Below, piece by piece: positions 2,713 to 63,594 of a stretch of DNA of 64,000 bases. Origin of the DNA: Serpula lacrymans var. lacrymans S7.9 (taxonomy: Eukaryota; Basidiomycota; Agaricomycetes; Boletales; Serpulaceae); contig NW_006763300.1 of NCBI RefSeq assembly GCF_000218685.1, positions 393,360-457,359 of the forward strand, read 5' to 3'. Made by a program: the position numbers and the translations under genes. How positions within the stretch are numbered: the stretch's first letter is position 1; each line of letters starts with the position of its first letter. Below the pieces are notes generated by a model that did no database searches, was not told the origin of the DNA, and saw only the letters and a list, made by a program, of their open reading frames with translations.

Positions 2713-3035
2713 TATTAAGAACAAAGCTTGAAGGAAGTGTCTAGCCACTTGCTGAGAGCAATCAGGGACTGGAAACTAGAGTCCAATGTGAGTAACTTTA
2801 TTATTAGAGAGTATGACAGGTATACAGTACCTAGAGTCCAATGTGAGTAACTAGAGAATAGGAAGCATTGGACTCTGCAGTACTGTCCGATGTTTTGTAA
2901 ACAAAGGTAAACAAAGGAGCCACAAAGGCGGAATAATAGAGAACACAATCAATACTGAATGGTAGAGCAATAGATAAAGAAAGAAATGAAAATATAGAGG
3001 TAGCACAACTAGGTGCAGAATCACCAAAACTAACA
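2713..3035 (-). repeat. Solo LTR, family A (copia-1), with 5 bp duplication GGTGA
   Basis: This is a complete 323 bp LTR. In the minus reading it begins TGTTAGTTTTGG and ends TTCTTAATA. Direct repeats GGTGA flank it at 2708-2712 and 3036-3040. Inside, a 22-23 bp unit (CTAGAGTCCAATGTGAGTAACT) is present twice, about 55 bp apart. No internal retrotransposon sequence adjoins it, so it is a solo LTR. The family is tied to copia element 1 because that element has the same LTRs. Confidence 0.92.
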
Positions 3036-3059
3036 GGTGATACCAAAATAGGCAATGTG

Positions 3060-22165: not shown

Positions 22166-22239
22166 TCACAGATTTGTGGGCAACTCACCATTCACCTTTC
22201 TGAAAATCCACTATGGCGCCCGAGCAAAATACTCCATGC

Positions 22240-22515
22240 TGGGCACAGTATTCATCAGTAATGTCTTTCATGCAATACAAATGTCTTACTCCTTGTGAGG
22301 TATGCAATTGCTAACACCCCAGCTGCTCTCTCACATTTGCTAACAAATGTTCCCACGAGTTTTGCATTCCAATCCCACTGGGATCCCAGCTCTGGCTGGA
22401 GGATGTTGGGCCCCTCAGTATGCATGTGAATCAATGTTGTTTTTTTGAGGGCCCACCCACTCTGCATACAATGTTGCACCCCATTGAATATACACTACCC
22501 GGGTCTTCAATGAGC
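22240..22515 (-). repeat. Dispersed repeat R4 fragment (copy 4)
   Basis: It shares the segment from CAGTAATGTCTTTCATGCAATAC through TGCACCCCATTGAATATACACTACC with the copy at 18095-18865, in inverse orientation. Confidence 0.6.
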
Positions 22516-22700
22516 AAACTCTCACTCAGCCGGGTTGTCTAGGATGTGTAGTGTCTCACCCAGCGGGATCATTGATGATGGGCACAATATATCACATCTA
22601 ACATGGCCCAGCTGGCACACTCTGCCGGACTCCGCTGGCCCCATCTATATGGTAATATTATCAGGTAATAATTCCCCATCTAAGATGGAAGGTTATTACT
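22516..22700. repeat. Second copy of the 12244-12420 repeat
   Basis: The block CATCTAACATGGCCCAGCTGG and the end ATTATCAGGTAATAATT are shared with 12340-12420. Again it directly adjoins R4, as it does at 12244, so the two may be parts of one element. Confidence 0.55.
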
Positions 22701-22943
22701 ATACTATGTAATGTCCTTGCCTATGTTAATGGGTCCTGGGGTAGAGTTCTCAGACTTGTTCTTATCATGCATTATCACACTAAAATCATAATGTAGGTAG
22801 GTCAGATTTATAAGAATCAAGCAAGTAAATATACACTGAGTGATGAGTGAGGAGAAACTAAGTATATGCAAATAAAATCTAGTTGAAAAAAAGAAAGAAA
22901 AAAAGAAATTTATATTACAAGTCCATTGAACTATAATTTTGTC
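22701..22943. other. No gene recognised
   Basis: AT-rich sequence downstream of the coiled-coil end of the interrupted gene at 22944-25599. Confidence 0.4.
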
Positions 22944-23077
22944 TAATTATACTCCCTCTTCTTTGCTTTCAACCTTGCTACCTCATCCTCCAGCTGGCTA
23001 ATCCTCTTATAGAGATCCCCAATGATCCCCTACCTTTGTTCCATCCTTGCTACCCTTTCTTCCAAGGAAGGAGGCGG

Positions 23078-24844: not shown

Positions 24845-25599
24845 GCGGACTCCACTGTTGTGCCGGGGACTACTATTGTACGTGGCTGGGAACTGGGGAT
24901 GTAAAGCTGAAGTTGATGAGATCCAAGCTATCATTTTGAGGAGTGACAGCAATAGGGACCTCACCTCCCGGGGGTGTATGGAGCCTCAGTGGCTGAGGTG
25001 AATCCCCTTGTTGGGCCTCAAAAGGCCAGTAAGGAGGCATGGTGGTGAAAGGACAAGGTGGAACCACTGTGAAAATAAACAGTTAATAAATCATTGAATA
25101 AGGATGAAAAAATAGGAAACATACTTTGCAGCAACCACCTATTGTCCAGAGCCTCCCTCCTCTCAGGAGTACGTCTCCTGGGATCAAACTGGATGGATTC
25201 CTCCATCATCTTATCTTCCCAGCTGATTATAGATGGATACACTGCCCCTCCCTTGTTCTCTGCTCTGCCAAACTGTGTGATGGCACTCAGAAAGAGCTGG
25301 GGGATGTAGAAGTTGTACCTGGCATTGTTTCCATCCCTTATTGTGTTTGTCCCACTCACTAGTTCCTCCCTCAGCATCTCCACAAACTGGTCACTGTATT
25401 GGACAAAAACTAGGGGCCAACACATCATGGCCTTCTTGACGCACTCATTGGCTTGGTAGATTTTTTCTTGGGTGGAGAAAAATATTTGGTGTGGTGTTTT
25501 TGGTTTGGGAGGGGATAAAAGTGTGTTGTAGGGTAGTATTGTCTGAGTGACTGAGATGCTAGAAGGGTTCAGACGTGCTATACATGGATTTGGTGCCAC

Positions 25600-26100
25600 A
25601 AATTGTGCCCTTGGGAATTTTGAGAAAAATGCACGTGATAAAAGTTGAACTTGTATTTTTCACATTCAAATACCAGAAATATTGCAAATACCAACTCCCC
25701 ACTGGGGAGTTGCAAATCCAGTGCCCAGAAACCATCCTCAGGTATGTCCTGTCATCTCAAATACTACTCCACCACCATCTTGAAATACTTTTCTTCAGAT
25801 TTACCCATGTTACCCACCATATATGACCCAATAACCATAAAATGTAAGTTTATACATTTACTTGTACTTAAAAGGTCTGATATACATTTCATCAGCAATT
25901 TTAAGTGAGTCAACTGGCTTGTCAGACAATTTGCCATCCCCAAGGGGGTCCGACTTATCTGAATGCTCCCCAGATTCCTCCAAATGCTCCCCAGGTCCTT
26001 CCTCTGTGCCCTCCTCTCTGTGCCAACCCCAGGGCCTTCCTCTGTGCCCTCCCTGGGGCCCTTCTGAGATCTCTCCCTGACACCCACTCTTATAAACAAT
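25600..26100. repeat. Upstream flank shared with 41715-42145
   Basis: The sequence upstream of the interrupted gene matches the sequence upstream of its second copy, including ACTACTCCACCACCATCTTG and GGTCTGATATA plus CATTTCATCAGCAATTT. So more than the coding sequence was duplicated. Several Pro/Ser-rich frames here only reflect a C-rich patch at 25960-26090. Confidence 0.55.
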
Positions 26101-26544
26101 ATTTAAGATGGAAGGTTATTACTATGCTATATGAGCCTACCCCTTCCTCTCACTGGTCATCAACATCAATGTACAGACAAAAGCTCACCATGACAGCAAG
26201 GACCAGGAGTTTTGCTTCATTCTCCCCATTAGAATATTGAGGGGGGCAGCTCTTGTGATAGTTGAGACAGGCCTTGTCATTGAGCTGAATCATGGGGACT
26301 TTGCAATTTTCATCTGATATCACTTATCTCAATCTTCATTATAAAAGTAAATGGGCATCCATAGTACTTCACACTGATCATGAATTTGTTTCATGGGCTG
26401 CAGATAGAAATGGCTGACAAGAAAATGAAGCCATGAGGACCTTTGTATAAATACACTGTCTATAGTACTACTATACTACTCCTGTATGCGTTGTTCAGCA
26501 ATTCTCAGAGGTATTGTCAGGAGTTATTTATATTCTGATCAGAA

Positions 26545-28316
26545 TGCCTGCTCTAAACTCTGTGGGTAAATTTTCACTTTTATGTTATGCTTGATTCTCT
26601 GTTTACTTTCTCACAGGCTTGCTAACTTCAATGGCAGGCAAAAAAAATACAAAGGGTAAATCTAAAGCTAATACCTCAAAAGGGGGGGGGGCGATGTAGT
26701 TACTTTGAGTGCTGAGGAGTACCAGCACATCATGGCTATGAATGCCAGGATCTTAATGACTTTGGCCCAGTCACACCACCAAACCCTCCTAGAAAAAGAC
26801 AATCCATTGATAATGATTCTGATGAGGAAGATTTTCAAGGGGTCCTAACTTAAAAGCCACACACAGGTGGGGATGAAAGCAGTGATAATTATGATGAGGA
26901 TAAGAGTGCTGGACCTGATGATAAGATATAATCATTCCTAGAGGAAAATACTTATGTGCTGCTAATATGTTAATAGACTCATTCTGGATGATCAAGTACA
27001 TTTCTGGATACTTTTAACATCCATTAAGCTAACAGCCTATATACCAGCCCAAGTCCAGGCCTGTTGTTATACAGGAGAGGACTAAACCATCAGTGTATTC
27101 TTACTCTTACTCTTACTTTTCTAGTTTGTCGAGAAAATGAAAATTTTCTATGCCTTTGTCCAGAATGTCTTCTGTCTCTGCCTCTGTTTCTATGCCTTCA
27201 GCTCTCTATTTACTGCTAAAGATGGGGGAAAGATGTAGGATCACCCTTGATATGTTTCCCAATCATCTTCTGGATCTTGCTACCGCTGGGCATACTGTCA
27301 TAAGATTGTATGCTATGACACAAGAAGGATTCCCTCCACCTACCTGCTGCTCCAAATCTTTTTGTAAAAGGCTTTTTTGATGCTTCAAAAGGCCAAGAGG
27401 ATTTACAAGCCAAGCTTCTAGAGATTAACAGCAATGAAGAAATTAAAAACACATTAATTGACTATGTATGTGTCACCACCTCTGATAATATCATACTAAT
27501 AAATGACTCTTTTTACTAGGTTTGTTGCCCAGTTCTGGGGAGAAATTGTAGCCAAAGCTCATCTCATGATCAATGGTGCTTACCATATTCCTGGTGATAT
27601 GATGCCAGCTCAGATCAAGACAGTTGTAACATGGCTTTTAGAGATTGGTGCATTTGCTGATGGTGATCTTGATATCAAGGTGAGCTATTGTTCTACTATA
27701 TTGACATTGATCTTAACCATATTTAAGGCCAGGGCCAGGACATTTAACAAACAGAAACCTTTTTCTCATCAGATTGTCAAGGACTTAATTCATAATCAGT
27801 GGTATAAGTGTAAGGGTGAGGGTGTGTACTACCCTGAACATTTCAAAGGCATCCCTTTAGCCCTACTTGTAATTACCACAGCAGCTGTAAGTTCTAGCCT
27901 TCTTTATCCAGCTGTTTATCTTATTATGCTTTTGGATTGAATGTTCACTCAGAGCATCTGTGAATGGCACCAAGGCCACACTCGAGTTCTCAGAGAATGT
28001 TTTCAAAACCAGGTAAGTTGTTACATATTTATGTTAACTTTTTTTGAATATTGCTTAGGTGGGAATACTACTTCAAAAAGTTATCAGTTCTTCAGAGGAA
28101 AAGTCCTATCTGGATGAAGAAAATTAGAGATGGCTTGTACCAGGACATTTTGTAAGCATCAATACTTGAGCTTTTAAGCTACTGATTTATCAAAATAGAA
28201 ATCTGGCAAATCTTCATTATCTAGGGATTGTTGATGATCATATGAAAGATGAAGATTTTGGTATTGATTTTGAAGCCCTAGAAGGCGCTGTTACTGTTGT
28301 TGAGCATGCTGCTTGA
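26545..28316 (+). pseudogene. Decayed DUF6532-like multi-exon gene
   Basis: DUF6532 proteins are fungal proteins of unknown function, often in large basidiomycete families. A short exon (ATGCCTGCTCTAAACTCTG, 26545) splices to a Lys-rich segment near 26610-26690, which then breaks at a run of G. The 3' half is clearer. FVAQFWGEIVAKAHLMINGAY begins about 27522; an intron follows at 27679-27728; then HQIVKDLIHNQWYKCKGEG and YYPEHFKGIPLALL to 27885. After another intron comes CEWHQGHTRVLRECFQNQ, and after one more KWEYYFKKLSVLQ. The last frame (DEDFGIDFEALEGAV to TGA at 28316) does not join in phase, and the middle (26690-27400) has several stops. Confidence 0.55.
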
Positions 28317-28362
28317 TGGCATTCCTTGTTTTCTATCTACATATCCTACATTTCCTTGTTAC

Positions 28363-28659
28363 TAATAAAACTAAGTAAAACTCAGCCGCTGCCCGAGAGG
28401 CTATAGAAACGACTTTATTATTTACCTAAGTGAAACTACAATGGATGTTAGTTTAAGGTGATCTCTAATAAATGTAATGTAACATACCTCAGCCGCTGCC
28501 CAAGAGGCTATAGAAACAACTGAGGTATTTCTATACTAAACCCCCTACTACTTATAGTCGGAGGTGCTACTTGCTACAGTATAATGACTCCAAGTACAAT
28601 TGTGCTCCTAGGAGAACAATGGCTGCTTTGGCAGAGACCGGGTTTATTCGGTTTTGTCA
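28363..28659 (-). repeat. LTR, family B, with internal duplication and decayed target repeat
   Basis: It matches the family B LTR at both ends. The plus reading begins TAATAAAACTAAG and ends GGTTTTGTCA. Flanks are GTTAC (28358-28362) and GTTGC (28660-28664). About 80 bp are extra because the CTCAGCCGCTGCCC(G/A)AGAGG block occurs twice. Confidence 0.82.
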
Positions 28660-28679
28660 GTTGCTAGAAGTAAAAAATA

Positions 28680-29045
28680 TTATTGTGCTGTTTTTATTGT
28701 ATTATTTGGTTGTTGAGTGCAATACATGCTATAGCAGCTCCAAGTGTAACAAGTGCATTGAGTGTAATATATACCCTAAATGCTACCAATGTATTAGATG
28801 AGTGCTATGAGTGCTATGGGTGCTGTAAATGCTGTAAGTGCTATGTTTATAGCAAATGCTGTCATAGTGTTGATGCTACTATATGAGTCTCTTGGAACTA
28901 TAGTCAACTGAAAGAGTACTTACTATAAGAGCACATTATTCCTGAATAGATGCTGGGGTTTTGATTACAGCTATGATCACTATGACATCTATTTTTGCAA
29001 TTATAGTACTATAAGAGCATATATAGCCAAAGTGTTTTTCCTGAT
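28680..29045. mobile_element. Right-end fragment of the CATCAGGAAA TIR family
   Basis: The last about 150 bp share the TATAAGAGC motifs and the terminus TTTTTCCTGATG with the copies ending at 4619 and 43628. Before that, from about 28720, is a tract of degenerate AGTGCTATGAGTGC-like units of about 10 bp. The left end is not identifiable. Confidence 0.5.
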
Positions 29046-29603
29046 GTTCATTGTACGTGATGTGTCCAATCATGTGTGTAGGCTGTAAGGCTCGTATGGC
29101 CAAAAAGCCTGAGCAATGGTTGACAGAGTGCCAACCAATGTAGTTTAGTTGTTTACAACAAAGAGTGGAATGGCTTCATATATGATCCTGTTACATGAAC
29201 CTATGATTACAGTGTGTCACACTCTAGACCCCATAAACCTAAGGTTGAAATGGTACACTATTCTTACAGTATATAATACATAATTGTACACAGTTTATAA
29301 AAGTTTCAGTTGCATAGTTTTCATCAATACATCTTTGAAATCCATACCATGTCCAATCAATGTTAGGGACAACATCTACGGGCTACGGGGCCATGCTATT
29401 ATCTTATCGTTATCTTATCGTTTGTGTTCATTGTGTCGCTCAGAAAATATATCCTAAACACTCGAAACTGTGGATGGGGAGGCTAACGTACAATGCATAT
29501 GGGAGACTAGGTAAAGTCAGAGAACGCTAGGGTATTTAAAGACATTGGTAACTGTATAGTGGCTTTGACAGCTCGCTGTTGGTGTAAAATATTATAAATC
29601 TAC
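29046..29603. other. No gene recognised
   Basis: Intergenic sequence ahead of the 3' end of the minus-strand gene at 29604. A doubled TATCTTATCG occurs at about 29401-29420. Confidence 0.45.
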
Positions 29604-30346
29604 TCATTGGATACTATCTTTTTGTGACGACTTTGGAGTTAAAGTGTGTTGTGCACTAACATCATCGCGACCTGCATCCCTAGGTCTTCCGCCTTTCCGA
29701 GAAGAAGACGTACTCGATGTGACATTATCACCAGCGACCTTGGCTACCGGCACCGGTAGCCTTCTCTCCTTTGAATATGAAACTGACTTGCCAGAGTCCC
29801 ACTCCCGGCTCTGAACTTTATCCATTTTCTTTCGAGCATTCTGTTCGCGAGTGCGATCGACATGCTCCTGCACTTCGCGGTTGTGAACTTGTCGTATACG
29901 TTCAGCTTCTTGCGTTTTTTTGAATGCTTCTTCGTCGGCCTGAACATCCTGTAACTGTGGTGAATTCCACAATTATCTTCCATGTACCCTGAAACTCACC
30001 ATCCTTCTCTGTTTGATTTTCTCATTCTGGTCCTTAATACGGGCCATACGATTTGCCAGCTCCTGTTCGCTTGGTTTTTCCTGAATAGTATTAACATTAA
30101 TCTGATATGTCAATTGAAATGCCGTACCCGTTGTACCCCACCCGTTTTGACGCGTTCAGGATTAAGATACGGTTTTTTCTTGGATTTCACATCACTGTTT
30201 ACAGGTAGAGATGATTCCAAATGCTCTTGTTCTATCTCGGTACTGGTGGAGTCAAATGGCACAGTATTTGAAGAATCTTCCAGAGGGGCGGAAGTCTCAA
30301 AGTCGAGTCCCAAAGAGTTAGAAGTTGTTTCTGCGTTCTCCATCAT
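29604..30346 (-). CDS. Charged coiled-coil protein of unknown function
   Basis: Three exons fit (30346-30128, 30080-30000, 29948-29604) with GT-AG introns of 47 and 51 bp, giving 214 residues. The first about 55 residues are acidic and Ser/Thr-rich. Then comes a basic KSKKKPYLNPERVKTGG segment. A highly charged helical stretch follows, from about residue 74 to 155: ELANRMARIKDQNEKIKQRR, then [16 protein letters not shown] and REQNARKKMDKVQSREW. The tail is Ser/Lys/Arg-rich. The splice sites keep the frame exactly, which argues for a living gene. It faintly recalls CCDC9-type proteins, but I would not assign it. It is head to head with PGK1. Confidence 0.8.
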
Positions 30347-30565
30347 AAGCCTAGCCGCAAGCTACCTCTACTTGCAAGATTTAACAGGTATGGACGATAA
30401 GTAAGGACGATACTCCAAACTAAGAGCAAGTGCGAACCAGCCGCGGCCATTACATACACGCAACGCTGCGAAGATTATGTTATGCATTATGTAATCAGGA
30501 TACGATTCAGATAAGAAAACCTCTGCAAGTCAACCAAGTTTCAACCATTGGGCTGAATACTCACA
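30347..30565. promoter_or_regulatory. Shared divergent promoter region
   Basis: Only 219 bp separate the start codons of the minus-strand coiled-coil gene and PGK1. Both promoters must lie in or overlap this stretch. No single binding motif is assigned with confidence. Confidence 0.6.
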
Positions 30566-32184
30566 ATGTCGTTATCAAGTAAACTTTCTGTCACAGAACT
30601 TGATTTGAAGGGCAAGCGTGTCCTTATCCGCGTGGACTTTAATGTTCCTATGATGGAGGGTAAAATCACTAATCCTGCGGTATGTCACATTGCACCAGTA
30701 GGGACTATCCTGCTCATCGTTCATATCTAGCGCATCGTGGCTGCCATCCCTACTATCAAGTATGCTCTTCAGAATGGTTGGTTTGAACATGCATATCTAT
30801 ACATTCGATTTTGCCTGACATGGAAAACAGGGGCTTCTACTGTAGTGCTTATGTCGCATCTTGGTCGCCCGGATGGCAAGGTCGTGGATAAATATTCTTT
30901 AAAGCCCGTAGCCCTAGAGCTTGAAAGGCAAATCGGCCATCCTGTTACTTTCATTTCGGATTGCGTCGGGCAAGAGGTGAAAACCGCTGTCAATTCTGCT
31001 TCTCCCGGCACCATCATTCTGCTGGAGAACTTGCGGTTTCACATAGAGGAAGAAGGGTCCATAAAAAACAAGGACGGGACAAAAACTAAGGCAGACTTCG
31101 CCAAAATTACGGAATTTCGTGAAGAGTTGACAAAACTTGGGGACGTCTATGTTAACGACGCCTTTGGTACAGTTCACCGCGCGCATTCTAGTATGGTTGG
31201 TGTCAAACTGCCCCAAAGAGCAGCTGGGTTCCTAGTCAAGAAGGAGCTGGACTACTTCGCGAAAGCACTCGAAAATCCTGACAGACCGTTTCTAACCATC
31301 CTTGGCGGGGCGAAGGTGTCTGACAAGATACAGCTCATCGAAAACATGTTACCGAAGGTACACAGATGTCATATTCGGTGGTTGCCTTGTTAATTCTATA
31401 ACGAATAGGTTGATTCACTAATTATCTGCGGTGGTATGGCCTTCACATTCAAGAAAATCCTTGACAATATGTCGGTGAGTATGTGATAGATTGGCGCGAA
31501 TGCCATCTGATCGGATTTTGTTTATAGATAGGAGATTCTCTATTTGATCAAGCAGGATCAGAGAAAGTCACCGCATTAGTAGAGAAAGCTAGAGAATATA
31601 ACGTGAAACTTGTTTTTCCCGTTGACTATATCACGGCGGACAAATTTGACAAGAATGCAAAGGTTTATTCGTCATTATTGCTGAAATTGGCCTGTTGCTT
31701 ATTATCCAATAGACCGGTGTTACTTCTGCCTCGGATGGCATACCTGATGGGTGGATGGGCCTAGATGCGGGTCCCGAGAGTCGTGAATTATTCCGTCAGA
31801 TGGTTTTGGAAGCAAAGACGATTCTATGGAACGGGTGTGTTTTCCAGTCAACGTACATAATGGACATAATGACCGTGATTCCTGTAGCCCTCCCGGCGTA
31901 TTCGAGTTTCCTGCATTTGCAGCAGGCTCCAAGTCACTCCTTGACGCCAACGTTGAAGCGGCACGAAATGGTGCCACAGTCATTATTGGGGGTGGGGATA
32001 CTGCGACCGTAGCAGCACAATATGGTGCTGAAGGACAATTAAGCCATGTCAGTACTGGTGGGGGTGCCAGCCTCGAATTACTCGAAGGAAAGGTCAGAGA
32101 AATTCACTAATTCATGTCGTATATTCTACTAATATGCTATCATCTCAGACTCTTCCCGGTGTTGCAGAACTGAGCGAGAAGTGA
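30566..32184 (+). CDS. PGK1: Phosphoglycerate kinase
   Basis: This glycolytic enzyme transfers phosphate from 1,3-bisphosphoglycerate to ADP in the cytosol. Eight exons fit: 30566-30679, 30731-30776, 30831-31357, 31409-31474, 31528-31662, 31713-31834, 31888-32092 and 32149-32184. All introns are GT-AG and about 50-56 bp. The product has 416 residues, the normal length. Visible motifs are RVDFNVP (about 22-28), the SHLGRPDGK loop (about 62-70), [20 protein letters not shown], the GGAKVSDK hinge-side motif and the nucleotide-binding GGGDTAT (about 372). The final exon encodes [11 protein letters not shown]. No defect is seen. The start is the first in-frame ATG and gives the canonical N-terminus. 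Confidence 0.97.
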
Positions 32185-33080
32185 TTCCATATGAATATAC
32201 TGTAGTGGACTTCATAAACAATGTACTGTAGATTCGGCACTAGGTTCATCCCAGTGGCAACTCCGCCGTTCCAAGGAAAATCACCGAATTTGGTAGGCCT
32301 GAGTGACCGAATCGATCCGATCGATTTCCGATTTTCGAAGACTGATTGATCACGTGCCTCCACCGATTCATTTTATGTTCCAGAGTTTTTCTCACTACAG
32401 TCACCCCAGTCTTGATGTTATATGGTTGCTAATCAAATCCTTCAACAAATGGAAAAACAAATTCTGATTTTAGGTTCCGATATGTATGTCACACTGATTC
32501 TACAACACAATTAGAATATGTTGTATGATTTGTTTATGATACACAGCAACAAAATATATCTTGAATTTGAAGAGAAAAATGATTCACAATAAGTTCAACC
32601 CAATTGTACAACATACATAATGATGAAAATATTCAAGATATTTATTGAGACTTTGCACCCAGACCATATTTTAGTACAAATTATGACTTTGTATAGAGAT
32701 TTTTGTAGACGGAAAAACCAGAAATTAAAGGGAACACATATGCAGGATCAGGAAACTTGCCAAACTCTAATATTAAGGCAAATTAAGTACTTGGATAAGC
32801 TAATCCAACAAAGGTGAGCACATAGGCTGCATTTGTTGCTGTATCTTATGGAGTGATCCGCTGACTGGCCTGATCAGTAGCCTGTTGAAAGGGACAATAA
32901 GAGGCAAAAGGACACTTTAGTCACCCTCCAAATAGGGGCATTTAGGTTGAACATTGTGTGTAAAACTATCAACCTAAATGCCTGTTTTTTTGGGCAGATC
33001 CCAGGACTTGGGATGATTCCCAGGGATGAAATAGACTTGAATTAGTAACTCTATAAGCAGTCGAGATTTTAAAACAAAAT
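32185..33080. other. No gene recognised
   Basis: Sequence 3' of PGK1. It contains AT-rich sequence and, near 32980-33030, motifs of the GGGATCC/GGGATGATTCCC type related to the 34900-35240 minisatellite. Confidence 0.45.
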
Positions 33081-42502: not shown

Positions 42503-42515
42503 CATCAGGAAAATG

Positions 42516-42835
42516 TGTTAGTTTTGGTGATTCTGCACCTTTGTGCTACCTCTATATTTTCATTTTTTTCTCTATCTATTCCTCTACCATTCAGTATTGA
42601 TTGTGTTCTCTATTATTTCGCCTTTGTGGTTCCTTTGTTTACCTTTGTTTACAAAACTTTGGACAGTACTGCAGAGTCCAATGCTTCCTATTCTCTAGTT
42701 ACTCACATTGGACTCTAGGTACTGTATACCTGTCATACTCTCTAATAATATAGTTACTCACATTGGACTCTAGTTCCAGTTCCTGATAGCTGTCAGCAAG
42801 TGGTTAGACATTTCCTTTAAGCTTTGTTCTTAATA
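42516..42835 (+). repeat. Solo LTR, family A, with 5 bp duplication AAATG
   Basis: Complete 320 bp copy, TGTTAGTTTTGG to TTCTTAATA, flanked by AAATG at 42511-42515 and 42836-42840. It is inserted just inside the left end of the TIR element. Confidence 0.93.
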
Positions 42836-43100: not shown

Positions 43101-43797
43101 TTATAAAATGTGTTATACAGGTGTTATATATTAACCATTCATGGACTTAGGTTATTTTTTTACTCATTATCATCACTTGTATTTGGATAAATCATTATTC
43201 TTATTTTTATAAATATCAAAGATACAAACTACTATTTCACCAATACAGACTACATAATTGATTAATGCTGTATGATTTATTAACCCTTTTAAGCAGCTTC
43301 AACTATATTATAACTATGACATTTATAGCTGTAGAAGCTATGTAGGCTGTCATAGGCTATAAGAGCACTTATAGTACCTTGCCTATATTAATATACTTGA
43401 CTCCAAACACTTCTGGCCTTTTTCTATTGTGAACAAGTTTAATAGATTAATCCAGAGTTTGAAGGAAATATAGATGCTTCTCCCCTTGGTTAAAATTTTG
43501 CCTACTACTGTGCTATAAGAGCTATAAGAGCTATAATCACGCTGATAGTACTATAGTTTCTATGAATGCATTTATATATATAGGTGGTGGCTATATAGCA
43601 CTATATAGCAAAAGGGTTTTTCCTGATGTATATATAAATATATACCTAAGTATGCCTCATAGATGCCTCAAATCTATCAGGACCTTAGAAGGCAGAATTG
43701 TTAAGATTTAATAATAGCTCAGATATTTATCAAGAGTGAAAATAAGACCACACGCATCTCAGCAACCTATTGCACTCTTTGCCATGCATCATCCTGT

Positions 43798-44062
43798 TGT
43801 TAAGAACAAACCTTAAGGGAAGTGTTTAACCACTTGCTGAGAGCTATTAGGGACTAGAACTAGAGTCCAATGTGAGTAACTAGAAAATAGGGAGCATTGG
43901 ACTCTGCAGTACTGTTCAAAGTTTTGTAAACAAAGGTAAACAAAGGAGCCACAAAGGCAAAATAATAAAGAACACAATCAATACTGAATAATAGAGGATT
44001 AGATAGAGAAAGGAATGAAAATATGTAGGTAGCACAAAGGTGCAGAATCACCAAAACCAACA
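43798..44062 (-). repeat. Solo LTR, family A short form, with 5 bp duplication CCTGT
   Basis: The copy is 265 bp. In the minus reading it starts TGTTGGTTTTGG and ends TTCTTAACA, so the ends form the expected TGTT...AACA. CCTGT flanks it at 43793-43797 and 44063-44067. It has only one copy of the internal CTAGAGTCCAATGTGAGTAACT unit; the roughly 55 bp between the two units of other copies is absent. Confidence 0.92.
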
Positions 44063-44074
44063 CCTGTAACCCAG

Positions 44075-45136: not shown

Positions 45137-45501
45137 TGTTGATGATGAAGACTGCTTGTTAAAAAACCACACACAAAACATATTAACAAATAATCCTCCC
45201 ACAATCCACAGAACTTATTTGTGGGCTAGGCTTTTTAGAACAATGGGTGCCTCCGTTGTTTGTGGGGTGGCAAGCTTTATGATCCTTCAAAACAAAACCC
45301 TAGTGGTGTGGGTTTGGAGGAGGAGGGATAGTTGAAATATAAGGGCTTGGTACTGAACTAGATGTTAGAATATACTCTGACATATCAATACTCCATAGGA
45401 CAATACCTCTGATTTGTAAGCCAGCCCAGCATGGAGCAGCTATTCTGTGTAAGACGTCCGTGGTTGCATGTTATGTTTAAGATCCTATTTTGTATAATCT
45501 T

Positions 45502-45574
45502 GGCCATATAACTCAACTGGTAAAGTAGCTGGCATGTATCCAGAAGGTTCCAGGTTCAATCCCTGGTCTGGTCA
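45502..45574 (+). tRNA. tRNA-Thr(TGT)-like sequence, probably a pseudogene
   Basis: The 73 nt fold as a tRNA. The acceptor GGCCATA pairs with TCTGGTC, with one G-T and one mismatch. The D arm is ACT/AGT, and the anticodon arm CTGG/CCAG has a 7 nt loop CATGTAT with TGT at 34-36. The T arm CCAGG-TTCAATC-CCTGG is perfect, and the discriminator is A. Position 33 is A instead of the near-invariant T. The sequence sits inside an insertion in a dead retroelement. These points favour a dispersed tRNA copy over a working gene. Confidence 0.5.
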
Positions 45575-46257
45575 ATATCCAATTTTATCACTAGATTGGG
45601 GACTGAGATAAATATAGATGAGCATTTCCTTGCTAATTATAGCAAAAAGCAGGTTTGAGAATGAGATGACAAGATTCCCAGTGATAGCAGGCTCCTGATG
45701 CACAAACTGTAGTGCTCAGAAGGACTCTAATTGAAAGAGATGACAATTAATGGTAATAGCAGCAAAAGGTATTGTGACTACACTGGATCACAAGTAGCAG
45801 TAGGATAGTGGGCTTGAGCTTGGAATTCTGTGAGAGATCTTATATACTTGATAGGATAAGACAAAATTTGAAACAAGACTGGATCCACCTGTAGTTCCCA
45901 TGGAAGTCCTGTAACTAGACATTGTATTACCCTGCTGATGTAAGTCTAGTTAGAGGCACATATCCGTTTCCCAGCCTCTTTCTATATTTCCTTAATAATT
46001 CCACAGACTTAGGCTCGCTGCGACATCACCTCCACCGGCAATACCAGAGTCCCTGCCAGAGACATGACCACAATTGCTACGTCATCCAATGTGTGTCATT
46101 GCCTAACGGCTTGTCGGCCAATGATAGTCACAACACAAACAGTAACGTGCGTGACGGGACGCGCCCTGGCACGACAGGTGTCATGCAACAGCACTCAAAA
46201 GCGCTCTCATCATCTCTACCATGAACATGGCACTATCATTCTAGGCACGTACTACTA

Positions 46258-47559
46258 TTAAACATCATCTGACATGTTAACAATGTTTTCTAGGGCCTGC
46301 AATGCCTCCTCCTTGTCCTCCTTATCTTCCTCCTTGACCTTGAGCTCTCTTTGCTCTTCAAGATCCTGTTCCTCCGCTCCCTCACTCTCACACACATCAT
46401 ATTGGCCATTTTTGCTAGGATTAGGTCCTGCACCCACTCCAACGTTGTCAATACAGGCCTTGGCCTTGCTACCGCTCTCCCCTAACCAGGTCTGAGTGCT
46501 TTGACCACGCAAGATGGTCCCTGTAAACCCATGTAGGCGAGAGATGTCAAGGAGGCGGGAAATGTGAATTTTATTGAAGCGGCCACACTCACACCTATGC
46601 AAAGCAATCTGATGAGCAAGTTTAGGATCATGGACACTCACCTGGTCTTCGCAATCACGCAAGTACTGATTCTCATCCTGCAGGTACGTGGCTACACGCC
46701 TAATTTCAACATCCAGTCTCTCAATTTCCTCTCTAGCCCGACAAATCTTGAAATGTTGATCCATGGCCAAACGACCAGCAGGTGTGGCCCATGGTCGAGT
46801 AGATATATCCTGGTGGGCATCACACAGGAGGTCAAAGTCTGCGAGAAAGGCGTACTCAACAACTTTTTTCCATTCCAGAGTACGCCGAGGGGGACATAGG
46901 GCTTACGCAGCCATATTATAGCGTTCCAGTGCTGTTTGTATGGCGGCCGACCTAGCCTGCAGGGCCTTCCCTATACGTTTCCATAGTGAATACCCTAGTA
47001 GATAGATCAATAAGGTATCATCATGTATTCCCTGAATAGAGCAAGCTCACCTATTTGCGATCTATTCATTTTGGTGAGCTCGAACATACAAGCTACCACT
47101 AAGCCTTCTAGCTGATCTAATGCCCGCTAGTAGTTGCGCATTGCTACGAGCTTTTCGGTCTTTTGCCATTCAGGACTATCTGGCGTCCATCTTACATTAA
47201 TTTCTAGTCTCACTTCGAGCCTCTGGACCTTTTGTAGCTCTTTGTCGTGATTTTCCATGGCATGCCGGCGAGCTGTCTCCAATTTCCTTGTTATGCCCAG
47301 TAATACAGAACCGGTAGTAACTGCACTATGTGCTGAGGCTTCTAGAATGGCAACAAATTTTTGTCTGGGAAGTGGCCATAGTCTCAGTTAGATTGAATAT
47401 AGATGAGATCACGCACTCGCTCTTCTGGAACTCGCGAAGCTGGTGTAGATATTCCATTTGAAGTGTTTCATCTTGAGGTTCCTTTTGTAGCGAATTGAGG
47501 TAGGCTTTTTCTTCTTGTAGCCACGACTGGCACAGGAAGAATCCAAAATCTGGCTTCAA
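46258..47559 (-). pseudogene. KDZ transposase, C-terminal part only
   Basis: Reading minus, the first block (47559-47330) has CQSWLQEEKAYLNSLQKEP and EYLHQLREFQ. Next, about 47230-47050, a helical segment ends MNRSQIG. Then HIGKALQARSAAIQTALERYN and PPRRTLEWKKVVEYAFLADFDLL lie at about 46975-46830. The final open frame, 46770-46258, has HFKICRAREEIERLDVEIRR and a Glu/Lys-rich tail. These are the C-terminal cap motifs of KDZ proteins. The catalytic core that should precede them is missing. At least one in-frame stop lies near 46910. The transposase is a fragment retained within its own element. Confidence 0.78.
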
Positions 47560-48271
47560 TCAACACGCCTCAGGCGTCAGTGCTGTTAGCTCACTGCCTG
47601 GTGGTACATAGACTCAGATTTCCATCAGCGTTCTCTCCTCCTCTTTCGCACTCCCTATTGTTGTCTGATCAGTGGACAGATGCCAGGTGCCCTCTGCTTA
47701 GGTATGTTACTGTCTCACATTTTCTGAGCCGGCTATTGCTCATTATCTACACATAAGCACTTGCATGGCTTGTCTTCCTAGATGCTGGTCAGTGGGGAAT
47801 TTCAGTGACGGGTTGTTGTTTAGGTAGTATTAGTAAGTCTTTCTTTCTAAAGCTTCAAATAATTTTTTGATTTTTGATTCTCAAGTTCTCGGGTACTAGG
47901 TACTCTTGGAGCACTAACAGCTCACTATATGGCAGAGAGGAGTGCTGACATATAAGTGGTGAGTAAAAGTTTTCAATTTAGCGACACTGATTGAATGCAA
48001 TGTCAGCTTATTCTTATGCACAGATATGAGTTTGAACTGCCATATTAAATACCGTACAAAAAACTAATAGAAAATGCAGGTCTTCAGGTGAGTTATTAAA
48101 GCTACGCTCATGAGATGACCTTCTACTCGCTGCACACATTGACAGATGTTACTACCAAAACCCAATAATGTATGTTCATCCATCAGATTACACTGCTATG
48201 CGTAGACATGTGCATGCAAGTCTAGCTAATCGCATTCTCATTTTTGCTTCAACTTAAATTTATGATTTTTT
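47560..48271. other. Internal spacer of the KDZ-like element
   Basis: No coding sequence is seen between the two divergent genes. This is probably where the deletion of the transposase core ended, together with the promoter of the plus-strand gene. Confidence 0.45.
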
Positions 48272-50379
48272 TTGATGAGTTCCAGTTTGTTAATTCAACC
48301 AAACCACAGGCAATGGTCACTTTTTCAACAGGTAAGTTTTTTATCTCTTGATCTTGTCCTATTACTCATTTTAATAATGGCTAGCTATATATTTCCTGCC
48401 TGGCAGGATATGCTGTCATCCAGCAACTCTACTACACATGATGCCCTGGCGCAGGCAACACCAAACTTGTTGTTTATGCCGTCATCTCCCTCAATCTACC
48501 CCCGTCATTTACCCCTCAGAAATAGTACCGCTGACATCCAGACTTCGACGCCTGCACCCGCTCCCCAGACCAATGTCAGAGGAGCTGCTCCCAGGCCAAT
48601 CCCCCTAAACCTAATCGATCCGGTGCTCCTTGGGGAGCCATCGCCTCCAAGTGCCTCTACTAATGGTCTTCATGCCTTGGCGAACAACTCTCCCCCTTCT
48701 GCAAGCAACTCTCCTCGCTCTGCAAGCCACCCTTGTCCTTCTGTGAATGGCCCTTGTACCTCTGCGAACAACTCTCCTCCCTTTTTGGACCACCCCTGTC
48801 CCTCTGCAAATGAGCCTCCCCCCTTTTCAAACAGTGCTCCTCCCTCTTCAAACAACCCTTGTCCCTCTGCAAATGAGCCTCTGTCTTCTGCAAATGACGC
48901 CCATTGCCCTGCAAATGAGCCTCATCCTTCAGCACCATAAGTCCTCCCCTCCCTTATTGTACAATGTGGGCCATCATCCATACGCCTCGAGAGAACTACC
49001 TGGGCTGGCCGAAACCCCAAACGACCTATCCAGGTACCTCGGCCAGCTGCTCGTGAACTCACGAAGGCAGAACAAGCCTCACGTGCCATTGCCGCAAAGG
49101 AGAAAAAGGTCATGAAACAGCAGATCAAGGACGATATCGATGAATACTTACAGGATCAACTTTATTTGGTAGCTCTAGCAGCCAAGCACAATGTGACATT
49201 AGATTATATGAAGAAACAAGTTAGTTCTGAGATGAACTACAAGACGACCTGTGCACCCAATATCTACAACGTGATTGTTTACGCAAAATCACTGGAAATT
49301 AACATAGCTATGTACATGTACGATGGAAACTTCTTGACCACTAACATATACGTGTCAAGGCCTACCACTGGGCGAGAGAAAAAATTTGAAAGAGCTACAA
49401 AACATAGCAAGCAAGACCACCAATTCATCCGATCTAAACCAAGAAGAGCGTGAGGAACTCTGCAACCACTTCCTTGAACAATGTAAAGTGAAGATCACAG
49501 GAAGTCATGCCAACAACACCGCTGTGGCAAGGGATATGATGTTAACTGCAGAAAGAATAGGAAGGGAGGTAAGTATCAAGCCATTGTCTGCCACATGTTA
49601 TGTCATTACTGATTGATGCTAGTTTGATAATCTCGCTCTTCGGACAGGTGCATATGGGTGCTTCTTCTTGACGTGTGGCCACATCTACAATACTGGGACA
49701 ACTACATGGTATGGAAGCGATAATTTGATGGACTTCTGGGAGGATATCATTGGCAGAGACCCAGATGAACTTGCAATGTTATTTGAGCAGTGGGCCTGTT
49801 CGCAAAATCAGAGTATGTTGTTTCTTTTCTTATATTTCTATCTTATCTCATTATTTTTATCAGATGTTCATGAATAAGACAACCTTGCTAATTGCCGTCA
49901 ACAATGTACCAGGCTCTGCGGGAGTGGGTTGCGTAAGTATTATAATCCTTATATTACTCATATAGTTGGTATGTACTGATGCATTCTATGTAACAGGAAA
50001 TCTTTTAAAACGAAAAACAAAGATGGTATACAAACAATACGACCAATCTATTGTCGCCACACATGGCGTCAAAATCATAGGTTGGCCGGAAGATGTTCCA
50101 TTTGTCAACCCATCTGCAATTGGTACCATGGCTGAAATACACAAACTGCAAGATGCATGGAAGACTGGAACATGTCATTGGGTAAAGCTTTCATCGGCCC
50201 AGCTGCAAGAACACAAAAAACAACTAGATGCACGTCTCCGATCAGGTGAAGTCACGAGAAAGAAGAGAAAGAAGCATTCTGATGCAGGCTTACCCCGCAA
50301 GCGATGTCAGGTTGCACGCTGTGATGAGAATGAAGGAATTGAACAAGGTGGTAGCAGAGTCCCAAATACACAAGGATGA
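48272..50379 (+). pseudogene. Accessory gene of the KDZ-like element, broken
   Basis: The front half (48272-48940) is low in complexity, with repeated SANEPP/CPSANE-type units. A TAA at 48938-48940 interrupts it, and the same frame continues through RNPKRPIQVPRPAARELTKA to a helical DDIDEYLQDQLYLVALAAKH. A frame change near 49375 leads to LNQEEREELCNHFLEQ. Intron-separated blocks follow: GCFFLTCGHIYNTG...LFEQWACSQNQ (about 49660-49810) and NKTTLLIAVNNVPG (about 49870). The last block is VKIIGWPEDVPFVNPSAIG...CHWVKLSS with a basic tail to 50379. I know this arrangement from basidiomycete transposon-associated proteins without an assigned function. DNA binding is a guess from the basic tail. 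Confidence 0.65.
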
Positions 50380-51350
50380 AAGGGCAATCAAAGGGCACCA
50401 AAGAGTGCAGAGGTCATTAAGGTGTTGTCAGAAAAATCAGATGAAGATTGATGGTCATTAAATGGTATACTGTACCATATGTAGTTATGCCCATGTCTCC
50501 CCCTTCGTTTATGTTGTATGCTAGCTATGATTCATGTACCCCATCATTCTAATGCGTGTTTGTTGTTCAAGTTGTTGAGCACATTCCCTATAGCCTATCA
50601 ACGTAGGGACAGGTGTGGCATTGAGAGCGCCAGGGCGCACCCATCTCACCGCCAGGATGTGTCACATTGTGCTCAACGCCAGGCGCGTCCCGTCACACGT
50701 GTTACTGTTTGTGTCGGGACTATCATTGGCCGACAAGCCGTTAGGCAATGACACACATTGGATGATGTAGCAATTGTGGTCATGCCTCTGGCAGGGACTC
50801 TGGTATTGCCGGTGGAGGTGATGTCGCAGCGAGCCTAAGTCTGTGGAATTATTAAGGAAATATAGAAAGAGGCTGGGAAACGGATATGTGCCTCTAACTA
50901 GACTTACATCAGCAGGGTAATACAATGTCTAGTTACAGGACTTCCGTGGGAACTACAGGTGACTGGATCATGATTCTGTTAATATACAAGGTAATGTACA
51001 GATGCTTATATAATAATAAAAAAGGAAAACCTATGCACAGTATATCTGTGCAAAAAAGGAGAAAGAATGCAAAAGAATGTAATGACAACTTATGTGAGAG
51101 TAGTACAGGATAGAATGGTTAAAAAGATAAGGAACAGAAACTTCTAGAGTGTTACAAATTGTACAGCCAAAAGATAGTCCAATAGCAAAAACAGCAAGTC
51201 ATAGCAATATGCAATAAAAAAGGGCAAGGCAAAAAACAACATCACTATCAACACAGCTCTATCAACACAGCTCCTTGTTATCAGTCAGGCATTCTAAAAA
51301 AATATGATTCCATAAGAATGATTCTTAATCAAAAATAATCACACTGCAAA

Positions 51351-51681
51351 TGTATTTCCCATGATGTCCCATTTGAAACCCCAGAAACAACAATTGATTT
51401 ACCAAACCAAGGTTCTCCTATGCTAATTCAGAATATTCACATAAAACATGAAACATTCAATAGTGTCAGACTTCGGGACACATCTATACAATCATGAGCC
51501 AATGTTTGCAGTGTGTATAGATGGAGTTATGACTTTTTTGTCTGTTTGTTTGAACTTTTGCCATTTGGAAGGGGCCATGAATCTGTTAGTTAACATGTTT
51601 CACAAGATGTGTACCGCGTTCACCTGCAGAATGACTAACAGAAGCTAGGATGAGGACTCCTGGGACCCGAACCAACATTAA
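51351..51681. other. No gene recognised
   Basis: Short stretch between the 1.8 kb element copy and the 3' end of the RAD57-like gene. Confidence 0.45.
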
Positions 51682-55450: not shown

Positions 55451-55694
55451 GAGTAACTTGATTATTAGAGAGTATGACAGGTATACAGTACCTAGAGTGC
55501 AATGTGAGTAACTAGAGAATAGGAAGCATTGGACTCTGCAGTACTGTCCGATGTTTTGTAAACAAAGGTAAACAAAGGAGCCACAAAGGCGAAATAATAG
55601 AGAACACAATCAATACTGAATGGTAGAGGAATAGATAGAGAAAGAAATGAAAATATAGAGGTAGCACAAAGGTGCAGAATCACCAAAACTAACA
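55451..55694 (-). repeat. 3' LTR of copia element 1 (family A), truncated
   Basis: The LTR begins at 55694 in the minus reading (TGTTAGTTTTGG), directly after a polypurine tract (AGGGGGGAG, about 55695-55704). The last about 80-90 bp of the LTR are missing, so no target duplication can be read on this side. Confidence 0.88.
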
Positions 55695-55723
55695 CTCCCC
55701 CCTGATGCTGCACCTCCCAAGCA

Positions 55724-57680: not shown

Positions 57681-57696
57681 GCCAGGGAAGTAGCGC

Positions 57697-59486
57697 TGTT
57701 ATGCACCAAAGTTGATTGGTAGCATGGACAGGTGTCAATAACGAAGTGAATATTCAAAAAGACTCGCTTTTGCGCCACACAGGCACAGTGCCACGTGGAA
57801 TAGTAATTAATATTGCCTTTTTCAAACTTGTGGCTGATCAGCACCACCTCTATTAGGCAATCCAGTCACGCTCACCTTTGCTTTTCCATTCGGTACTTTC
57901 CGCGTTTTGGCATTTTGGCAAATTTTTGCGTTGCCACTGGCTACACATTGCATTGTGCCCTCGCTTTTGTTGTTTCCCTTACTCCCCTTCCTTTGCCTAG
58001 CCCCACCATGGGCCCCTTCCTCTCCTTTTTATTCTCACCTGACGGTCGTTTCTGGATCCCCATTTTAGTTCACCTCCTCGTCTTATTTGCACCCCCACCA
58101 TTTCTGATGTCACCACTTCCTATCCGCTTCCGTCGCCGATCCGTTGACTACCACGTGCTTGGGAACTGCTGATATCAGCAAAGCCCCAGCGGCTGGTTCA
58201 AATAGGGCAACAGGTCCATCTTCATGACATTGATCTGCCATCATATACTATCAAAACATCGGTTGCTTGTCTTGCCTGGTTGGAGTGTGGGTGGGTAGTT
58301 TTTGAGCTGGAGAAGGTTCATCCCCTTGCGTTGCCCATGTTCATCGCTGTCCCATTCACTTGGGTACACTTATCTTTTGTCCATTGTCTTCGCTACAGCT
58401 ACACCTACCACACACTGCCTGGGACTCACTTGTTCCAAATTGGAACTACTCCTCTCCCTCCCTTGTTTGATCAGGTGGTCCAACACAACCAGTCCATTGG
58501 TAAGGCCATGGAACTGTCGGATTTGGACTAGGTGGTGGACTGGTGGCTCCAGTTTCTTTTTCTTCAGCAAAACATTCATTTACAGTGTGATTATTTTTCA
58601 ATTTTGAATCATTTTTATGGACACATATTTTTTAGAATGCCTGACTGACAATAAAGGAACTGTGTTGATACTGATAGTGTTTTGCCTTGCCCTTTTTTTT
58701 ACTGCATCTTCCCATGACATCATGATTTTCCTGCTCTCTGTTTGCTATTGGACTTTACTTTATGGCTGTACAAACCTGTGACATTACTCACAGCATTCAT
58801 TGTTCTATCCCTTTCTTTTCCTTTTTTGACAATCTTAGCCTGTACTACCTATGCAGGATTTGTCAGCATACATTCCTTCCTTCATGTTCTTTCTCATTCT
58901 TTTTGCACAGCTATACTGTGCATAGCCTACTTTTCTTTTACTATATAAACCCCCTGTATTTTACCTTGTAAAAACAACAAGAATCCAATCCAGACTTCTT
59001 CTTTACTCTCAAGTTCACTACTCTGCTACTTGTGATCCAGTGTGGTCACAACACTTCCCACTTCTACCACTGTTAACTGCTGTCATCGTCACTCGTCACT
59101 TTTTAAAAGTGATTGTCATCCCCTTTGATTAGAGTTCTTCTGAGCACTACAGTCTGTGCGTCAGGAGCCTGCTATCACTGGGAACTTTGTTATCTCGTCA
59201 TTCTCAAACCTACCTTGTGCTACGATTAGCAAGGTAGTGCTCATCTATACTTGTTACTAAGCCCCTATCTTCTATAAATTCAACTATCCCTCCTCCTCAA
59301 AACCCACACTCATACATCTCTGGGTTTTACTTTGAAGGATCCTTATACGTACCACCCCACGAACAACCAGACCACTCTACTGTTCTAGGAGGCAAAGCCC
59401 ATAAACAAGTTCCGTGGAATCTGGGAGGATTGTGTGTTAGTTTGTTTTTGTGAGTGGTTTTCTAATAGCAGTTCTCATCATCAACA
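57697..59486 (+). mobile_element. 1.79 kb LTR-like element carrying an ORF remnant, with 4 bp duplication GCGC (copy 2)
   Basis: It begins TGTTATGCACC and ends ATCATCAACA. GCGC is repeated at 57693-57696 and 59487-59490; read with one neighbouring base, the repeat could also be 5-6 bp because the site AGCGCT is palindromic. Removing the element and one GCGC restores the copia integrase-to-RT reading frame. A TATATAA box (about 58941) lies downstream of the ORF, as in copy 1. The ORF is intact only in its C-terminal part (about 58280-58531). Confidence 0.85.
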
Positions 59487-60569
59487 GCGCTCATCAAAAT
59501 TGGCTCTCTCAGAGATAACAGTGCACTTGGTGGTAGGATTGTAGAATTTCCATCCCTTGTAGCCCTCAGGATAACCAATGAATACACATTTCTCCATATG
59601 AGAGCCAAAGACACCTCTCTTGTCCTTTTGCACATGCACATAGGCAGTACAGCCCCAAACGCGAAGGTGAAACATGTCAGGCTTGCGTCCATACCATAAC
59701 TCAAAGGAAGTGGCATGGGCCACTGCATCAGTGGGACACCTGTTCCAGACATGCACCAAAGCGGACAGACATTCACCCCAGAAGCTATTAGGCAATGCAG
59801 ACTCTGATAACATGGCAGTGATACGCTCAGTTGGAAGTCTGTTTGCTCGCTCTGCCACACCGTTCTGCTGAGGACGATTCCTGGTGGTGTGCTGTCTCAC
59901 AATCCCATGGTCATCTGTGAATTGCTCAAATTCTTTGGACATGTACTCTCCCCCTTTATCATCGCACAGAGCCTTGATTTTGCGCTCCAATTGAGTCTCA
60001 GCATAAGCCTTGAATCTCTTGAAAGCATCAAAGACATCTGACTTGGCCTTGAGAGGCACAACAACAACATGGAATCGACTGTGATCATCAATGAAGGTGA
60101 CCCAGTAGCGATAACCAGAGAATGTGGGGGAAGAGACTTGGTGAACATCAGAGTGGATGAGGTCCAAAGGATGAGCAGAGCGAGTATCAGATGAAGGGAA
60201 TGGATTGGCATGCATCTTGCCAGACAAGCACAGTTCACAGACAGGATCAGGAGCAGCCTTCGAGTCCAGTGTAAGCCCAGTGACCAGATCTCTCTGTATC
60301 AGTCTCTTGACATCAGCATGATGGTGGTGAGCCAATCTGCGATGCCAGAGCGTCAAATCAAGTGGTATAGTCACAGTAAAATGTCCCAGTTCAACACAAG
60401 CAGCAGTAGATCCATCAAGGAATGCTGCATTGTTGTCATGAATAGTTGCAGTGAACAAGAGAGTGTTGTCACGCATAAAGGACATGGAATGAGACAAAAT
60501 AGTGACATTGAAACCACTTTGATGAGTTAAATACAAGACTGAGAGGAGATTATTTCGAAGATCTGGTAC
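59487..60569 (-). pseudogene. Copia element 1: integrase
   Basis: Reading minus from 60536, the zinc-finger region (LWHRRLAHHHHADVKRLIQ, then CELCLSGK) leads into the catalytic core: HSDVHQ, CDDKGGEYM and NGVAERANR carry the three acidic residues. The frame is open for 351 codons but stops at the inserted 1.79 kb element. Upstream it is cut by the solo LTR at 60570-60889. Confidence 0.9.
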
Positions 60570-60889
60570 TGTTAGTTTTGGTGATTCTGCACCTTTGTGC
60601 TACCTATATATTTTCATTCCTTTCTCTATCTATTCTTCTATCATTCACTATTGATTGTGTTCTCTATTATTTCGCCTTTGTGGCTGCTTTGTTTACCTTT
60701 GTTTACAAAACTTCGGACAGTATTGCAGAGTCCAATGCTTCCTATTCTCTAGTTACTCACATTGGACTCTAGGTACTGTATACCTGTCATACTCTCTAAT
60801 AATAAAGTTACTCACATTGGACTCTAGTTCCAGTCCCTGATTGCTCTCAGCAAGTGGCTAGACACTTCCTTCAAGCTTTGTTCTTAATA
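60570..60889 (+). repeat. Solo LTR, family A, with duplication GGTAC, inside copia element 1
   Basis: Exact 320 bp LTR from TGTTAGTTTTGG to TTCTTAATA on the opposite strand to its host element. GGTAC occurs at 60565-60569 and 60890-60894. The protease frame breaks at LHVP on one side and resumes with DLRNNLLSV on the other, so the insertion is precise. Confidence 0.95.
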
Positions 60890-63134: not shown

Positions 63135-63454
63135 TATTAAGAACAAAGCTTAAGGGAAGTGTCTAACCACTTGCTGAGAGCTATCAGGGACTGGAACTAG
63201 AGTCCAATGTGAGTAACTATATTATTAGAGAGTATGACAGGTATACAGTACCTAGAGTCCAATGTGAGTAACTAGAGAATAAAAAGCATTGAACTCTGCG
63301 GTACTGTCTGATGTTTTGTAAACAAAGGTAAACAAAGGAACCACAAAGGCGAAATAACAGAGAACATAATCAATACTGAATGGTAGAGGAATAAATAGAG
63401 AAAGAAATGAAAATATAGAGGTAGCACAAAGGTGCAGAATCACCAAAACTAACA
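63135..63454 (-). repeat. 5' LTR of copia element 1 (family A)
   Basis: Complete 320 bp LTR next to the internal leader. The neighbouring five bases outside it are CTACG (63455-63459). They cannot be checked against the other side because the 3' LTR is truncated. Confidence 0.9.
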
Positions 63455-63594
63455 CTACGGGAAGATATCATATCCATACTGGAGGACAAAACTCCAGAAT
63501 CTCTGAAGGAGACATTTCCTCAAGTAAGAACCTCCCAAATCTTCAGTATTCTTGGGATTACACTCCTCATAGCCTGTCAATTAGCATAAACCCA

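Follow-up and report, generated by a model that had tools for sequence, protein, structure and literature searches.

An internally deleted KDZ transposon in Serpula lacrymans, its recurrent companion gene and a pair of palindromes in its ends

A 64,000-nucleotide stretch of the genome of the dry-rot fungus Serpula lacrymans var. lacrymans S7.9, a member of the Boletales (NCBI RefSeq assembly GCF_000218685.1, contig NW_006763300.1, forward-strand positions 393,360 to 457,359), hereafter the window, contains a 5,076-bp element at 45886–50961 with two 280-bp inverted-repeat arms. The element is very probably a two-gene cut-and-paste DNA transposon of the KDZ family that has been deleted internally and is no longer autonomous: it combines exact ends, an 8-bp target-site duplication (TSD), paralogous sites that are empty, a C-terminal remnant of the transposase and relatives that share its tips and bear the transposase core. 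It is complete in its ends but gutted inside. The second of its genes regularly accompanies this KDZ lineage, and the terminal inverted repeats (TIRs) hold a pair of palindromes at fixed positions. Below, C and L numbers are our handles for contigs and loci of the assembly.

The left TIR (45886–46165, + strand) and the right TIR (50682–50961, − strand) are each 280 nt long and 97% complementary; seven of their eight mismatches are transitions, six of these at CpG. The tip CACCTGTAGTTCCC, with up to one mismatch, occurs in the window at the two element ends only, against 0.01 occurrences expected. Directly outside both ends lies ACTGGATC (45878–45885 and 50962–50969), identical at 8/8 positions and hence an exact 8-bp TSD. 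The initial annotation had described a complete element with these arms and this duplication, and that description is borne out. An 8-bp TSD is of the Zisupton/Dileera type and TIRs are of the Zisupton type; the 7-bp TSD without TIRs of Kyakuja is not what the element shows.

The host sequence around the element is a multicopy repeat, and its left flank has at least 74 matches (its own copy counted). The left and right flanks differ from each other and continue the two halves of one repeat unit. We compared the insertion point with 14 paralogous copies of this repeat, 12 from fetched loci and two from the window itself. The joined flanks align over the insertion point without any insert in 14/14 copies by local alignment, and 11 of the 14 (9/12 fetched loci and both window copies) span it in one BLAST match; for L069, L070 and L074 the insert-free join comes from local alignment alone. 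The closest empty paralogue, L080 on C6, has a single ACTGGATT, a 7/8 copy, where the element has ACTGGATC twice, and most of the remaining paralogues are too diverged at the eight TSD bases to inform the single-copy state.

The minus strand carries the open C-terminal part of a KDZ transposase gene (46258–46902, 214 codons, identified by protein comparison), bordered by a stop at 46903–46905. Its decayed continuation, in several frames with stops, extends over 46903–47559, and the core that is present upstream in relatives is missing. Two regions that neighbour KDZ cores, at C3:1017651 and C1:3384117, match parts of the last 196 residues with 62% identity over 143 and 63% identity over 118 residues respectively, which makes this a KDZ-type C-terminal region and upholds the family originally assigned; the best-scoring protein match has 53% identity over 184 residues, and the alignable part stops at about 47529. 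The Pfam core model PF18758 has 109 matches in the genome and none within the element, so the core is gone, as first noted; a Pfam scan of nine reading frames taken from the element gave nothing above the cut-off. Relatives with the element's tips do carry PF18758. One of them, L036 (C3:1016892–1022463, fetched whole), has its KDZ gene on the minus and its companion gene on the plus strand as in the window, and bears the core upstream of the C-terminal region (E 6e-37), at the place corresponding to the spacer at 47560–48265; the spacer itself has no DNA relative that a search of the S7.9 genome could find. Because the core is absent here and present in relatives with the same tips, we count this copy as a derivative of KDZ transposons, not a full member.

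Genome-wide, the TIR matches its own two arms and one other site, C19:656675–656940, at 91% identity. That alignment, 297 bp long, runs 17 bp past the inner edge of the right arm, and the site therefore looks like the remnant of a right end. The shorter tip pattern CACCTGTRRYTCCCAYRNAAG, with up to two mismatches, has 29 sites in the genome, against 4 for a backwards control. Of the 20 tips with 0–1 mismatch, 17 have a match to a KDZ core, a KDZ C-terminal region or the companion gene within 10 kb inward, as do 2 of the 9 tips with two mismatches; this linkage, which ties the tips to KDZ as had been supposed, is not fully independent evidence, since the companion gene is itself KDZ-associated. 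Of the genome's 20 matches to the cysteine cluster CxC2, none lies within 10 kb inward of the 20 best tips, a search that could miss a diverged cluster. Twelve tip sites form six facing pairs, of which five can be scored for a TSD; their flanking 8-mers agree at 8/8 (the window element), 7/8, 6/8, 6/8 and 3/8 positions, the 7/8 case (C1:2769974/2787563) being tentative because only 23 bp of tip match there. Empty paralogous sites exist, and among the five scorable pairs only this copy has an exact 8-bp duplication. The sixth pair, C3:3028668/3038911, was excluded from the count as a palindromic duplication that includes its flanks (8-mers agree at 2/8); in this structure (L053, L054) a KDZ end and its outer flank are repeated in arms 99.9% alike over at least 1,263 bp. 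A further element on C9 (L067) has a right end without its tip.

The companion gene occupies 48266–50379 on the plus strand in several frames and corresponds to the S7.3 gene model SERLA73DRAFT_59238, with inferred introns; the multiple frames are consistent with introns. There are apparent nonsense codons at 48938–48940 and 49875–49877. The N-terminal Pro/Ser-rich frame is inferred to belong to the gene, and repeats with a 21-bp spacing and its multiples (families D1 and D2) code for this region at 48680–48923. Of the 135 plus-gene residues compared, 93% are covered at 100% identity by a protein from S. lacrymans var. lacrymans S7.3. A protein search found 35 members of this family of fungal "hypothetical proteins". 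Described at first as a second, broken gene, the plus gene is more than a broken leftover: it belongs to a transposon-associated family.

Relatives of the companion gene occupy 29 loci in the genome, of which 19 (the window's own included) lie within 12 kb of KDZ sequence, where about 1.2 would be expected. The background here is a KDZ neighbourhood of at most 4.2% of the genome, the binomial P of ~1e-19 is rough, and the count includes nearly identical loci on C9 and C22. Two of the loci lacking KDZ sequence sit 634 and 854 bp from a tip. At the 19 KDZ-associated loci the orientation varies: 7 are divergent as in the window, 1 is convergent and 11 lie downstream on the same strand. An association of the companion with the lack of CxC1/CxC2 was not significant (Fisher p 0.16), nor was one with Plavaka transposases (4/29 loci within 12 kb against 1.7 expected; P 0.085). 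Two observations concern the loci themselves. In L062–L066, same-strand KDZ loci hold a more distant version of the companion, several with an RSDKG-type basic tail; and C9 ~2,041,500–2,056,300 and C22 ~20,300–32,600 hold matching KDZ/companion sets whose scores are equal or almost so, the result of either a recent duplication or a haplotype left over in the assembly.

Most tips share a second feature. The 10-mers at tip positions 25–34 and 60–69 are palindromes of the form NCTAATTAGN, and their spacing is constant across subfamilies. In the left TIR they lie at 45910–45919 (TGTAACTAGA, + strand) and 45945–45954 (TCTAGTTAGA, + strand), and in the right TIR at 50928–50937 and 50893–50902 (both − strand), respectively. 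Among the 20 tips with 0–1 mismatch, at least 8/10 bases are symmetric in 13 at the first place and in 15 at the second; L055, L039 and L048 are without both palindromes, and L047 and L042 without the second. The outer base pair mostly covaries (T..A, G..C, C..G), with GCTAATTAGG as an exception. Six representatives have mean dyad symmetries of 8.7 and 9.3 of 10 at the two places, where the value over all positions is 2.6 (sd 1.5); the contrast overstates prevalence because the six were hand-picked among tips that keep the palindromes. In one subfamily (L051 and L052) the palindrome position holds CCTAATTAGG, which we take to be a perfect CArG box; this fits the MADS-like prediction described below and is no evidence of binding.

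Structure prediction suggests that the companion protein holds a MADS-like domain followed by a GTF2I-like domain, in the same order as in NRF1, and on these models the product is most likely a DNA-binding factor. Alignment A3 comprised 30 of the 35 proteins (P0004, P0024, P0030, P0031 and P0032 left out as short), and alignment A4 comprised 29 of the 35. Compared by hhalign with five GTF2I sequences, the companion scores 34.3 (probability 56%, 42 columns, 12% identity); of 60 column shuffles none exceeds 16.8, and the reversed control stays at 11.2. When the PDB is searched with the companion profile, a single sequence comes up at E ≤ 10, a GTF2I domain with E 1.8. Among the predicted folds, only the GTF2I-like part thus appears to find support at the level of sequence. 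Resemblance to an HMG box or a MADS domain was pursued by profile comparison, which gave no support, and a relationship to TET/JBP proteins was set aside after no Tet_JBP match appeared among the families listed for 30 homologues, one of the two listings giving 25 of 38 families.

We picture the system as follows. A KDZ transposase supplied in trans would have bound the ends of the element, excised it and, through cuts staggered by 8 bp, inserted it. The companion protein would bind the two TIR palindromes as a dimer and help the transposase to find or pair the ends. This role of the companion in bringing the ends together, with both palindromes of each TIR as its binding sites, is the reading we tentatively favour, cargo or defence being the main alternative. 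Doubtful as it stands is the fuller version, in which this KDZ lineage is two-component and pairs its transposase with an NRF1-like homodimer, MADS-like plus GTF2I-like, that reads two NCTAATTAGN-type palindromes 35 bp apart.

Several observations weigh against these proposals, beginning with the predicted folds. Both structure models of the companion have pTM below 0.4, with most of their alignment in common, and a Foldseek search with them returned no match at E ≤ 0.001. The Pfam GTF2I model (PF02946) finds nothing at E ≤ 10 in a genome scan; it does not recognise the companion itself, and 1/30 homologues reaches it, at E 0.057. Unrelated families match as well or better: DUF6940 at E 2.6e-5 in 1/30, DUF3106 in 7/30 and Mrr_cat in 5/30 (best E 0.034). 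In hhalign the companion scores 13.0 against MADS, where shuffles reach 20.0, and 14.7 against HMG, where they reach 19.5, each fold being represented by only two sequences; and the companion profile does not reach the MADS or NRF1 chains in the PDB at E ≤ 10. As to the ends, 5 of the 20 good tips are without one or both palindromes, and the first palindrome is degenerate (TGTAACTAGA) in the element's own TIR and likewise in the C19 remnant. One of the five scorable pairs lacks the 8-bp TSD (3/8), and two others agree at only 6/8. Among the companion loci, 10/29 have no KDZ sequence within 12 kb, and the closest relative, at 67%, sits beside a Plavaka transposase in L037. Finally, as to mobilisation in trans, no transposase donor or intact close relative was found in the assembly.

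The L037 case bears on how the companion moves. Because its closest relative sits with Plavaka, this single case suggests that the gene has been exchanged between transposon types. The locus itself, at L037:1687–6698, holds a Plavaka transposase and the companion relative, enclosed by 42-bp inverted repeats with provisional boundaries.

The companion might instead be cargo or an anti-silencing factor outside the transposition machinery, a possibility to be taken seriously, if on the unlikely side. Fungal KDZ elements do bear TET/JBP genes (PMC12730594), for which an anti-silencing role has been proposed. Within 8 kb, TET/JBP accompanies 5 of 74 KDZ loci, always convergently, and the companion 18 of 74, with both at none. 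The varying orientation of companion and KDZ genes and the copy beside Plavaka point the same way, and the weak match to Mrr_cat, an endonuclease family, would allow the product to be an enzyme. Against this, the predicted domains are of a DNA-binding type, the ends carry palindromes such as a dimeric DNA binder would use, and no Pfam family hits more than 2/30 homologues at E ≤ 0.05. The separation from TET/JBP is also not clean: on C9 a TET/JBP match at 1404075 lies 3.6 kb past a companion gene at 1400434 and ~9 kb from KDZ sequence, barely beyond the 8-kb limit. In this region, C9:1393263–1404455, KDZ sequence, companion gene and TET/JBP match fall within ~11 kb, the sole such place noticed, and the two companions may share one element there.

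The initial annotation had also read the near-perfect arms as a sign of recent mobilisation by an intact relative elsewhere; that such a relative, closely similar and intact, resides in this genome and moved the copy now looks improbable. The 8/8 duplication and arms that differ at only 2/280 positions once the six CpG transitions are set aside do speak for a recent move. The genome-wide search with the 280-bp TIR, intended to find a full-length relative with an intact core, produced the single orphan end on C19 and no second complete copy; the best DNA relative of the element's middle is 118 bp at 72%, and the nearest KDZ C-terminal regions longer than 100 residues are at most 63% identical. 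Searches by TIR, middle and protein found no intact close relative in the assembly, the DNA search being one that skips common words. The KDZ remnant and the companion gene both look broken, and if the S7.3 protein comes from the same locus, the insertion is older than the split between S7.3 and S7.9. That the long repeats and the 8-bp duplication arose by chance or as an artefact can be dismissed: an inverted duplication of that kind does exist at C3:3028668–3038911, but here the two flanks are unlike, each carrying on one half of a single host repeat, and the empty paralogues refute it.

We return to the deleted KDZ copy and its lineage. Published work has overtaken the remark that exact KDZ boundaries are rarely described (PMC12810828, PMC8290104, PMC12730594). 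In Cryptococcus neoformans, KDZ1, KDZ2 and KDZ3 have TIRs of 241, 139 and 169 bp, with TSDs of 8 bp for KDZ1 and 4–8 bp for KDZ2 and KDZ3, and their insertion into a reporter gene has been observed (PMC12810828). The window element resembles them in family, in its long TIRs and, for KDZ1, in its 8-bp TSD, a likeness by description. KDZ1–3 differ in being ~9.2–11 kb long with a CxC1 domain, where the core is deleted here, and the accessible text describes no companion gene of this family for them. In Marasmius oreades, roughly half of the genome's DNA elements are KDZ or Plavaka, and the TIR motifs of both have been summarised (PMC8290104). The Kojima survey gives TSDs for Zisupton, Dileera and Kyakuja (PMC12730594): Zisupton and Dileera have 8-bp TSDs, and Zisupton has TIRs, as here, whereas Kyakuja shares the KDZ transposase and CA..TG ends, with Kyakuja-1_LB and -2_LB having 7-bp TSDs and no TIRs. 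By TSD and TIRs, the lineage resembles Zisupton/Dileera more than Kyakuja. The fungal families in the accessible part of that survey carry TET/JBP, unlike the window element, and neither the palindrome rule nor an NRF1-like partner is described there.

Further comparisons concern the companions. The transposon Harbinger also has two genes, and its second protein, of the Myb/SANT type, acts in end binding. Kyakuja-type KDZ, for its part, is linked to a CxC2 cysteine cluster. Like the proposed system, Harbinger (Nuwa) is a DNA transposon whose second gene encodes a DNA-binding protein apart from the transposase, here of the Myb/SANT type (PMC12730594), and it differs in that both its transposase and its DNA-binding domain come from other families. 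The Pleurotus ostreatus genome, like this one, holds many truncated or intact KDZ copies, and the intact ones all have a CxC2 region ahead (PMC7641404); at the 20 best S7.9 tips no CxC2 match lies within 10 kb inward. In NRF1 a DNA-binding domain comes after a dimerisation domain that is structurally most similar to the SRF MADS domain, and as a homodimeric transcription factor NRF1 binds the palindrome GCGCATGCGC (PMC10810270); the companion agrees with it only in the fold order of predicted models. The KDZ association of the companion family, the two palindromes at fixed tip positions and the companion's predicted NRF1-like domain order are apparently new. The literature searched, to which the founding KDZ paper and the Marasmius supplementary figure did not belong, describes neither a companion gene with KDZ nor the palindrome rule, and their absence from print is not established.

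The window contains other repeats. Copies of the host repeat lie at 45137–51355 (interrupted by the element), 23074–24847 and 57694–59490, and elsewhere in the genome several copies form inverted pairs ~11–14 kb apart; possibly the repeat forms the long ends of a larger DNA element. A second repeat family, up to ~320 bp long and up to 97% alike, has members in both orientations at 2713–3036, 20281–20583, 42515–42835, 43797–44063, 55451–55697, 60566–60889 and 63135–63458. A TET/JBP fragment at 19377–19643 (+) and a KDZ core fragment at 21770–22141 (−) are convergent and constitute another KDZ remnant of the window, this one TET-bearing.

KDZ transposons are known to be mobile, and how their ends are recognised is not described in the accessible parts of the literature covered. 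If the two-component reading is true, the family of 35 proteins would be end-recognition factors able to move between KDZ and Plavaka. Since the ends follow a fixed grammar of a tip and two palindromes and the companion gene is conserved, binding and excision can be tested directly. A family of fungal "hypothetical proteins" would then be re-labelled as transposon-borne, and mushroom gene counts would be affected.

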